Source: Pavlovales sp. CCMP2436 (lineage: Eukaryota; Haptophyta; Pavlovophyceae; Pavlovales). Taken from it: DNA of 16,828 nt. The stretch lies in the NCBI GenBank assembly GCA_026770615.1, contig MU631546.1, forward strand, positions 189,936 to 206,763. Direction: 5' to 3'. The notes beneath the pieces are model-generated. The model did not search any database, was not told the DNA's origin, and was given only the letters and a program-made list of their open reading frames with translations. This document shows, piece after piece, positions 5,399 through 16,427 of this stretch. The first letter of the stretch is position 1; the number at the start of each line of letters is the position of its first letter. The translations under genes were made by a program, and so were the position numbers.

Positions 5399-5449
5399 TA
5401 GGACGTGGCCTCGGTGCGGTGTCTAGGACGCGGCCTAGACGGCTTAGGC
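5399..5449 (+). repeat. 51-bp inverted repeat, left copy (family F)
   Basis: Matches the reverse complement of 7131-7181 at 50 of 51 positions. It contains the motif TAGGRCGYGGCCT twice and a self-complementary GTCTAGG...GCCTAGAC stem. A third motif copy lies just upstream near 5337. Together the two copies bound about 1.8 kb holding the 5664-6236 gene. Confidence 0.85.
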
Positions 5450-6390: not shown

Positions 6391-6516
6391 TCGAGACTCC
6401 GTCACAACTGCTCCGTCATCGTCGGTTCATAACGTCGTCACTTACTCCGAGAGGTGAATCCGCCGTGCCAGCAGGTACCTCCAGCGCGTTCGCTGAAGAG
6501 CCATCACTGACAAAAA
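6374..6516 (-). repeat. Dispersed repeat family A, copy 2 (reverse)
   Basis: The reverse complement carries the same block order as 184-310: TTTTTGTCAGTG, GGTACCTGCTGG, CGGATTCAC, CGTTATGAACCGAC and GCGGAATAAATTA. The first hairpin differs in sequence but keeps TCAC...GTGA at its base. Confidence 0.7.
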
Positions 6517-7130: not shown

Positions 7131-7181
7131 GCCTAAGCCGTCTAGGCCGCGTCCTAGACACCGCACCTAGGCCACGTCCTA
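7131..7181 (-). repeat. 51-bp inverted repeat, right copy (family F)
   Basis: Reverse-complement partner of 5399-5449 with a single mismatch. Contains two copies of AGGCCRCGTCCTA. The near identity suggests recent duplication or active gene conversion. Confidence 0.85.
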
Positions 7182-9057: not shown

Positions 9058-9983
9058 ATGGGCTACCTCGTGGCGCAGCGCCGCGTAACCAAGCGCGCCT
9101 CTCGCGCGGTATGCATGCGCGAGTGCCCGCGTGCCTTCTACTCGCGCCTCAGCCGGAGCGCGCTACTTTACCTCGCGAAGAAGGAGGGGCTCGCCCCGGG
9201 CGACGTTGGCGGACCCGAGGCGGTCCCTGAGAACCCGAAGGCGCTGATCAGCGTGCTGCGCAAGCACTTCAAGGGAACCCACCTCAAGAAGAACACAGTA
9301 CGTGCGCAGCCCCCCCCCCCTCCCTTCCCCCCCCCCACGCACACACGCACGCGCGCGCACACAAAAATCCCAACTCCAACTCTGACCCGGAACCTCTACC
9401 CTCGCACAGTACAAGGCGGTGAACACGGAGGCTGGTAAGCGCCTGCGCGTGCGCATGTCGGACTGGAAGTGCAGCCTCGCCTCCGTGCAGCCGCTGCTGG
9501 CCAACGGCGTCCCGCTCGATCTGGCGGCGCTCAGTAAACTCTCGCCGGCGGACGGGTCGGTTATGACGGGCTGCTTGCAGTCAATGCTGCGCAACGCCAT
9601 GTGCGGGTGAGTGCAACCCGGAGCTATCTGTGTAAATATCTATAAATACGTCCGTCCCGTGACAGGTCTCCACCGGACCAAAGTGTTGAGAAAACGCTCG
9701 GATCAAGGGACCTTTGCAGAGCACACGGATACCGTCCCCACCGCTGAGGCTGATCAGACACATGTCTCCCTGATACTTCTAATACGTTGCACTGCGCGCG
9801 AGCGGACGGTTCTGCGCGCGGGTAATTGTTAGTAATTGGTAGGAGTTAGTTATTGTTAGTGGACTGTTCTGCATGCTGCTCTGCTCTGCTCACGCTGGTA
9901 ACAATAACTAATTAAATACTAATATTACTACTACACCTCCACCAACTACAACTACTACTTCTAATGCTACTACTGCTACCACC

Positions 9984-11485: not shown

Positions 11486-14400
11486 ATGGAGCGGGTCGGC
11501 CTCATCTCAACGGCCCGACTGGAGCCCGGCCCTACTGCAACGCCAGACAGGCTGCAGCCGCCGGTCAGTCCGCTGCAGCCGCCGACCAGGGTGCAGCTCG
11601 GCATCCTCCGGCCGCTGCGGCCTGCGGCGCGCAGCGGCGGCGGCGGATGGTCCATCGACCTACAGGTCGACACGCCCAAGGGGCGCTCGACCTCGCCGCT
11701 TGCCGGGCTCGGACCTGGTTACTACCAGCTCGGAGGCCTTTCGCGCCGGGCAAACCGCGCCGGCGCCGCGATCGAGGTCGCCGCCCGGGTGCTCGAGCGG
11801 CCGGCGACCGCCTCGGCCGAACTGGCGAGTGGCAGGCCAAGCCGACCGAGGCCCGGCAGCCTCGATGCGGCGGGAGGTCCGCCGCACGACGCCAGGGAGA
11901 CCAAGGCTCTCCGCCTTCGCCGACCGGCGAGTGCGCAGACATTGGCGGCCGCGCCGCCCGCGCTGCGCGCCGGCGGGCTCACCCTGACTGAGGCGGGCAG
12001 GCGCAGGCGTGTGATCGGCTGGCGACCCAACGCGGTCAAGGGGGGGGGGGGGGGGGGGGGGGGGGAGGGGTCAGTCAGATCGCAGACGGTGGGGGGCGTG
12101 CAGTGTGCGAGAGCAAGGAAGCAGAGAAACAGACCGAGAAGTGGGCAGCAAGCAGCTCCGCGTTTTTATAATACATTATTATTATATATTACATTATTAG
12201 GTCAACGTGCGACTGCAGATGCTACGCGAGGACTCGCAGGCTCGCCAAGCTTTCCGAGACGAGCTGCAGGAGACAGAGCGCGTGAGAAAAGCCGCAAAGA
12301 CCCAGGCGACTTTGCAGGCCAATATCCACTCGGCCTGGCTCACACCGTCACCCTCGCAGCTCGCGCCGATGCGCGCGCAGCAGCTGGAGGCGGCACACAC
12401 AGCCGTGGCCGAGCGGCTGTCTGAGCTCCGCCTGTTCGAGGAAGAAGCGCGGCTGCGCACAATCGCGCGGGCGAAAAGGCTGCAGCAGCAGCAGGCCGAT
12501 CGTGCGACCCAGGCGACGCGCGCCCCCGCGGTGAGGGCCTGGCTCACCGTCGTGGCCGTGGCCGCGTGGACCTCGCGGCTACGCACCGCCCTCGTCCAGG
12601 CGCGCCGGCGCAAGCTTCGGCTGCGGCTGCAACGGCGGCTGAGCGACGCTGCCCAGCAAGCACTCGGGGCACAGGCGGCCGGTCTGCTGATCGGGCGCTC
12701 GCTGTACCTCGCGCAGAAGTACGTGGCAAGATTCCGCTACCGAGTCGGGCTGATGCGCCGGCGGCGGGCAGCCCCTGTGCTACGGGAGTTCCTGTGGGCA
12801 GCGCGCAAATCCCCTCTCGCGGCCGTGGTGCTAACGCGCCTGCGTAAGGCGGTAATCAGATTGCAGCGCTGGTGGCGCGGCGTGCTACTCGTTCTACAGG
12901 TTATAATTCTTAGATTTGATGTTATTATCTCTTTGAAAGTATATCGATGTTTTTTTTGCTGGCATAGTTTGCAATGTTTCTAACAAATCTAGCACTCATT
13001 CAGTGTCCGCTTCTATAACAAATCCTGCAGGCGCGTGTTGATGTGCTGATGATGCAGCTTCTCGCCCTAGAGCGGCAGATGCACCGCGGCCTCTCCTCGG
13101 CTGCGATGCGAGGGGGAGGTCGCGCTGCCCCCACCGCCCCCGCCGGGCAGGGCACGGGCGCGCGCGCGCACCCGACGCCGGGCCCACTGGTCGGAGCGCA
13201 GTCTTTGCGCCTGGGTCAGCGAATCGCCGGGCTCGGCATCAATAACGCAGCAGAGGGTGCGCGTAAATATCTATAAAAACGTCCGGCCCCGTAAAGGTCT
13301 CCCAGTCTCCCAGTGGTGCAGCAACAACACACTGTTCCTGAGCACACGGATAGCGTCATCATCCCCTCGTCGTCATCTGAGCTTATCCCCCCTCCCTGCT
13401 TGCCGGACTAATTCTACTAAGGTGCGCGGCTCACGTGGTGCCGCAAGACCTTGCGGAGAGTAACGGTGAAGCACCGCACGCGGGAGGCCATCGTACGCGC
13501 CGAGGTCCAGCGGCGTGTGCGCACGCACCACTTCCACCTGCAGCTGTTCCGCGCGCAGCTCGAGGCGTGCGAGCTGGTGCGGAGAGAGCAGGTCCTTTTT
13601 TGTAATAGTTCTTTTACGTCCCCCAACTTGCAGCCCGAAGGCGCACGGCCACGAGGTCCACAAAATCGTGGCCGGGGGAAGGAGATATCAGCCGCCTCCG
13701 TGAAAAGGGGCTGGTTTGGCGAGCTGCGCACACAGCGCACGTCATTCCAATTTTATGCCGTGTCTCGCTTATGAACACAGATGGTTTTTTTGTGTGTTTT
13801 TTTCGGGGAGTAGTACGCGCGAGCCCTTGGCTGTTAACTTAATATAGTTCAACGTTTATTTCAATCTCGGAGGGAGCAGGTCCTCGTCTCAGATCTCAGC
13901 GAGGAATTGCGCGTCCGGAGCATGCGCAGCGGAGCAATCTCGCAATTCCTTACCTCGCCCGCCGAAGTTCCCGCGGTCCAAGGCGATGTGGGTGGGTCCG
14001 ACCCACGCGACCCACAGCCATTGGGTCGCAACATGCACGCAGGCGACGCGAAGCAGGACAGCGCAGGTCAGCCGCTCTTCACTAATTTGGAAATGTGGTG
14101 TAAATGCGTGTCATCGTACAGACCTTCGTCAGAACACTTGAATTATGATAAAGAGTACAAAACATGCTGCTGGATTACTCTTATAAAATCTTATAAAATT
14201 CTAATAGTTTTGATTCCAAGCGCGAAGGCTTTATTTTTATACTAAGCTTGGGTAACACTCGATGGATTATTTGACACGTTTTACACACGGAGACTCTCGA
14301 GCCGCAACACAATAGTGAGACCAGAGCTGTTTTCATATTATTGCATCTAGTAGTAGTATTAGTCCTGGTGGTGATGTTGTTTAAAATCCTGGTGTTATTG

Positions 14401-16325: not shown

Positions 16326-16427
16326 CAGCTGAAGACCTGCTGGAACGGTGGATTCACTCGCAAAAGTGACCGGTCGTTATGAACCGACGAGAGATCTCAT
16401 GAGAGGACTCAAGCGGAATAAATTATA
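16326..16427 (+). repeat. Dispersed repeat family A, copy 3
   Basis: More diverged than the other two copies but keeps GTGGATTCACTCGC, GTCGTTATGAACCGAC and AAGCGGAATAAATTA in order. The first hairpin keeps its TCACT/AGTGA stem while its loop sequence is GCAA instead of GCGA, both GNRA-type. It lies about 110 nt beyond the stop of the zinc-finger gene on the opposite strand. Confidence 0.65.

Follow-up and report, generated by a model that had tools for sequence, protein, structure and literature searches.

A probable spliceosomal intron, likely derived from the truncated 3' UTR of a LINE inserted antisense in a coding exon of Pavlovales sp. CCMP2436

The origin of new spliceosomal introns is a long-standing question, and introners are a leading large-scale source. 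For the introner-like elements of fungi, propagation by reverse splicing has been proposed. LINEs, which integrate by target-primed reverse transcription, encode a reverse transcriptase (RT) and leave copies with one-sided truncation, target duplications of varying length and a short simple tail. A 2025 study on the origin of introns from diverse transposons reportedly counts retrotransposons among the sources of introners. In the available part of the survey by Gozashti et al. 2022 (PMC9860276), most introner families are consistent with DNA transposition; a term search of its text found "truncat" nowhere and "retrotransposon" once. We found no LINE-derived introners among the literature matches listed, which cover the journals in part. 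We do not claim that such introners are unheard of, and their novelty is limited because the 2025 study is said to include retrotransposon sources. The present analysis adds a resolved route, with its polarity, its duplications and a linked RT, in one genome.

We analyzed a 16.8-kb stretch of DNA (the window) from a 119-Mb assembly of 703 contigs. Thirteen Chloroa_b-bind matches indicate a photosynthetic eukaryote; comparison with the PDB favored no single lineage. It contains a gene for an IQ protein whose intron 3 is, we think it likely, a 5'-truncated LINE 3' UTR that was inserted in a coding exon antisense to the gene and would be spliced out of the RNA. The family of this insert is like the surveyed introners in forming repeated introns through exonic insertion of a mobile element, with splice sites that the duplicated target supplies in whole or in part; as far as the available part of PMC9860276 goes, it differs in its LINE source and in its varying truncation and duplications. 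The introners of Micromonas and Aureococcus likewise receive a splice site from the duplicated target, but the accessible portions of PMC9860276 and PMC7789003 describe constant-length direct repeats and terminal inverted repeats for them, and the window family has neither. Direct repeats at the intron edges are also shared with the introner elements of Amoebophrya, which, in the part of PMC7789003 available, have inverted repeats and direct repeats of 3-5 nt, unlike the window family. Fungal introner-like elements resemble it in spreading similar introns across a genome, possibly through an RNA step. According to the same portion of PMC9860276, ascomycete introner families have no target duplications or inverted repeats, whereas duplications are frequent in the window family and its RNA would be antisense to the intron. 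Compared with non-LTR retrotransposons, the window family is alike in its RT, one-sided truncation, varying duplications and short simple tail; it differs in that the complement of its 3' UTR would serve as an intron.

The features of the insertion site are as follows.

13030..13256, + strand: exon preceding the insertion (left end predicted)
13256..13263, + strand: left copy of the 8-bp target duplication, GGTGCGCG; donor GT at 13257-13258
13257..13421, + strand: predicted intron 3 of the IQ-protein gene (GTGCGC...CTAAG), placed by frame and duplication
13263..13268, + strand: alternative donor GTAAAT, which also keeps the frame and gains two codons (+6 nt)
13264..13420, - strand: probable 5'-truncated LINE 3' UTR copy (157 bp); the RNA sense of the element is the - strand, antisense to the gene
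13387..13399, + strand: pyrimidine tract CCCCCCTCCCTGC, recognized by eye
13408-13412, + strand: possible branch site CTAAT, recognized by eye
13421..13428, + strand: right copy of the target duplication, GGTGCGCG; its first G is the final intron base
13422..13591, + strand: exon following the insertion (right end predicted)

Joining 13256 to 13422 yields a single open frame across both exons (...INNAAEGARLTWCRK...), and an unspliced reading in the same frame meets stop codons within the insert. Element and duplication together account for the whole of intron 3, and the frame is open to either side of it. These positions bear out an earlier note on this DNA, which had claimed that the intron is bounded by an exact 8-bp duplication, that cuts at the same offset in both copies give back the pre-insertion exon, and that the duplication provides the donor GT while the insert provides the acceptor A. 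Its label "introner-like" suits an apparently insertion-born intron whose removal restores the exon. Splicing at 13257 is our prediction, the GTAAAT at 13263 being equally frame-keeping. Relative to a consensus built by eye, the 157-bp insert has two 14-nt gaps. The exon pair of the gene is present once in the assembly, where it is interrupted; a search of the assembly for an empty allele or a paralogue found none, the sole two matches being the gene's own two exons. A search of Rfam for the identity of the insert returned two matches, both far under the gathering score, and these were rejected.

We wondered how the insert is distributed in the genome. A looser exact signature, common to a sister subfamily, matched 427 times genome-wide and its reversed-pattern control 0 times, confirming the claim of the earlier note that the insert belongs to a repeat family. 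The 36-nt left edge, with ≤3 mismatches, was found in 87 places in the assembly (reversed control, 0), and querying the assembly with the entire region yielded at least 41 matches when 40 of 351 candidates were scored. The signature had no match in the viral contigs searched. In prokaryote genomes it had two matches, about the two expected by chance for its 19 fixed bases, and their flanks were unlike the element; we rejected them.

We gathered 110 loci from the organism's own genome and reduced 150 alignments to 105 unique copies of the window's subfamily, keeping those that start within 4 nt, have at least 80% identity and exceed 30 nt in length, and removing copies fetched twice. All 105 share their start, within 4 nt of TAAATAT, as the selection rule demands; their far ends are scattered over positions 37-191 of the 191-nt consensus. 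Twenty of these start-selected copies (20/105) extend to position 182 or more, and 14/105 stop at position 191, which is a CTGTAG after a branch-like TTCTACTAC and a pyrimidine tract. When 22 loci were instead selected by their right (3') end, 16 contained a copy with the left edge; the one at L041 is a different copy, so the figure is 15/22. Both sets were picked by pattern and overlap, and they are to be read as a comparison, not as a census. Comparing the 25 nt at either end of the consensus showed no terminal inverted repeat: their longest common word is 6 nt and does not lie at the tips. L004, L014 and L020 carry the element at the same site with near-identical left flanks, and the gene there was probably duplicated after insertion. 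The gene at L028 reads like a SET-domain protein by eye, with no Pfam match, and appears to contain the element twice, both copies being oriented alike.

The longer copies connect the family to a LINE. Position 191 adjoins the end of an open reading frame (ORF), and four copies (L025, L052, L106 and L109) run beyond it; their opposite strand encodes an ORF end that is 65-84% identical to the ORF preceding the 3' UTR in L114, with a stop codon in the ORF part of L052. A further copy, in L009, matches the LINE ORF end over 21 residues. L114 encodes RVT_1 (8.1e-15) on the same RNA strand, ∼3.6 kb upstream of the same 3' UTR, with several frame breaks; the RT has a single weak PDB match, 8gh6 (E 0.0042). 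L114 matches L111 and L112 at ∼94.5% each, and these match one another over ∼1.05 kb at 95%. In L113, an RT that is 87% identical to that of L114 over 208 aa precedes the same 3' UTR and shares its orientation, the intervening part missing, and by coordinates the spacing between RVT_1 and the UTR is similar in C642. The window's own subfamily would thus be tied to the RT through its ORF end and through the sister subfamily, the two not being seen joined in one stretch. The last LINE ORF had no Pfam match, even at E 10; to our eye its GDGNC motif is reminiscent of OTU proteases, and we give it no name.

One could suppose instead that the short copies form a SINE-like family that has a transcript of its own and is mobilized by the LINE, not truncated from it, the remaining mechanism being the same. 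The 14/105 copies that stop at position 191 are what a transcription start could yield, and few longer copies of the window's subfamily are seen. Against this, the copy ends are spread across 37-191, and four copies run past position 191, which borders the ORF end, into coding sequence. We regard a SINE-like family as unlikely. The ends at position 191 could stem from selection for well-spliced insertions.

We scored the 105 copies for target duplications, with 1260 mismatched pairs as controls. In a narrower search, 17/105 true pairs scored 8 or more, versus 0.5% of the 1260 controls; the window copy scored 3 there, since the searched region stopped before its right duplication. In a wider region the window pair scored 8, and scores of at least 8 were reached by 19/105 true pairs versus 14/1260 mismatched pairs. 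At a score of at least 6, and after a filter against C-rich matches, the wider region gave 44/105 true pairs versus 171/1260 in the matching control; chance may account for about 14 of the 44. The other 61/105 copies fall short, so the expectation of the earlier note that genome copies would be flanked by duplications holds for part of the family only. The match is exact in 33 of the 44, and exact duplications span 6 to 18 bp without a constant length (18 bp at L058, 15 bp at L082, 14 bp at L010, 8 bp in the window). Between the duplication and TAAATAT, TG, GTG, TGTG or GTGTG is frequent and resembles a short tail of varying length. Taken together, the common left edge, the scattered far ends, the varying duplications and the short tail suggest target-primed reverse transcription from the left edge, which in turn implies that the element RNA is antisense to the gene.

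We then asked whether sister copies look like introns. In 13/44 copies with a putative duplication, an AG immediately precedes, in the right duplication, the offset at which the left one has its GT, versus 10.9% of re-paired controls; 31/44 lack AG/GT at matching offsets. The 13 are placed for exact splicing, and many of the other copies may not be introns. The longest frame spanning the site lies on the intron-sense strand at 30/44 sites, and at 10/10 sites where a spanning frame reaches 180 aa, once frames with five or more unknown residues are excluded, which drops the long frame of L058. Ten of the 44 junctions, picked by eye for long or recognizable frames and so not a random sample, were collapsed and submitted to Pfam. 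A domain spans the collapsed junction in 3/10: PseudoU_synth_2 at L011 (1.1e-17), TPGS1_C at L016 (1.3e-9) and RNR_Alpha at L010 (3.3e-5, slightly below the curated cut-off). The domain is confined to one side at L009, L018 and L041, it stops at or just beyond the junction at L058, and none was found at the collapsed junctions of L005, L028 and L080. At L009, L011 and L016, no GT ahead of the element other than that of the duplication keeps the frame. Some copies do not make introns: L026 is at the end of an opposite-strand gene that reads like elongin C by eye, and L058 may have struck a splice junction that already existed.

These sites bear on whether the repeat merely entered a pre-existing intron or an existing splice junction, in which case no intron was gained. 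L058 may qualify, for its homology to aspartate-semialdehyde dehydrogenase ends a few residues from the junction and its 18-bp duplication contains AAG/GTACG. A related repeat in the window also lies within a longer intron:

9633..9765, - strand: family B (sister subfamily) copy within the intron of another gene; right end approximate, no duplication seen by eye

The earlier note had taken this for the same repeat as the insert. The relationship is real, but the copy belongs to a different subfamily, with 85% identity over 40 nt followed by divergence. Among 23 family B copies in the genome, 4 have a duplication score of at least 6, and 1 of those has AG/GT, so this subfamily contributes little. 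Entry into an existing intron is nonetheless improbable for intron 3, which is wholly element plus duplication between open frames, and at L010, L011 and L016 the domain continues through the collapsed site.

The earlier note had likened intron 3 to the introners of Micromonas and Aureococcus, which are DNA transposons; such a model calls for an 8-bp duplication of fixed length and for terminal inverted repeats. The window duplication is indeed exactly 8 bp, with the donor in the duplication and the acceptor partly in the element. Across the family, however, the duplications vary in length, truncation falls on one side, the consensus has no terminal inverted repeat and long members encode an RT. 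We abandoned this model as very improbable.

Equally hard to credit is an excised intron that was reverse-spliced into new sites and then reverse-transcribed: some copies do span from the GTG-type edge to CTGTAG and show hardly any target duplication, or none, but several others have long duplications, the truncation polarity demands an RNA antisense to the intron, and four copies extend beyond the intron end into the LINE ORF. Several copies that stop at CTGTAG (L019, L031, L036, L038/L039 and L045) have little or no duplication there, and insertion of a LINE accounts for them only via very short duplications or as selected survivors.

We therefore return to LINE insertion as the likely origin of intron 3. 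A LINE (non-LTR retrotransposon) would have inserted at a nick in the coding exon by having its RNA copied there. The sense strand of the gene would have been the primer, with synthesis beginning at the RNA 3' end (the complement of TAAATAT...). Reverse transcription would have halted within the 3' UTR, and second-strand cleavage upstream would have created the 8-bp target duplication. The complement of the 3' UTR would then provide the body of the intron, with the pyrimidine tract, a putative branch site and the acceptor A, and the GT of the duplicated target would act as the donor in the left copy and as the restart of the exon in the right copy. Splicing would restore the original exon because this GT sits in both copies of the duplication. 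We infer the order of these steps, as well as any present activity of the element.

Truncation polarity, varying duplications and a linked RT make this a concrete route from LINE to intron. The route also suggests why antisense copies of unequal length can work: an AG/GT target, once duplicated, brings both splice sites, and the complement of the UTR brings the pyrimidine tract. Because one genome holds hundreds of copies, 105 of them measured and of graded length, the minimum for a new intron is directly testable. The genome illustrates one way in which new introns may arise. The element may be an intron-prone LINE and not a dedicated introner, since only 13/44 copies with a putative duplication have a matching AG/GT. 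A bolder possibility, which we hold tentatively and with more doubt than belief, is that the LINE lineage evolved a 3' UTR that reads, on its complement, as an intron ready for splicing (a GTG-type edge, a branch-like TTCTACTA, a long pyrimidine tract and an AG beside the ORF end), together with integration that favors AG/GT sites. Antisense exonic insertions would then be spliced out at many truncation points, making the element a self-concealing retrotransposon and a continuing genome-wide source of introns.

Intron 4 of the IQ-protein gene also has a duplication at its edges:

13586..13596, + strand: left copy of the intron 4 duplication, 11 bp, GAGCAG/GTCCT, exact
13874..13884, + strand: right copy of the intron 4 duplication, GAGCAG/GTCCT, exact

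The intron would be 13592-13879, with AG/GT in mid-duplication, and is a candidate for a second insertion-born intron, from a different repeat family. Within it, ∼95 nt (13664-13759) are a high-copy repeat with 776 candidates in the assembly, 40 of which were scored. The first intron of the gene shows by eye a possible 6-bp duplication, GGTCAA, at 12034-12039 and 12200-12205, with AG/GT placement, which could be chance.

Other repeats lie elsewhere in the window. An inverted repeat at 496-604 and 1060-1168, with 109-nt arms of 79% complementarity and, nested within, a 76-nt pair of 91%, is a possible foldback element. Arms of 51 nt at 5399-5449 and 7131-7181, 98% complementary and 1.7 kb apart, are possibly the ends of another mobile element. 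A dispersed repeat occurs in three places (215-248, 6454-6487 and 16335-16370), one of them inverted.
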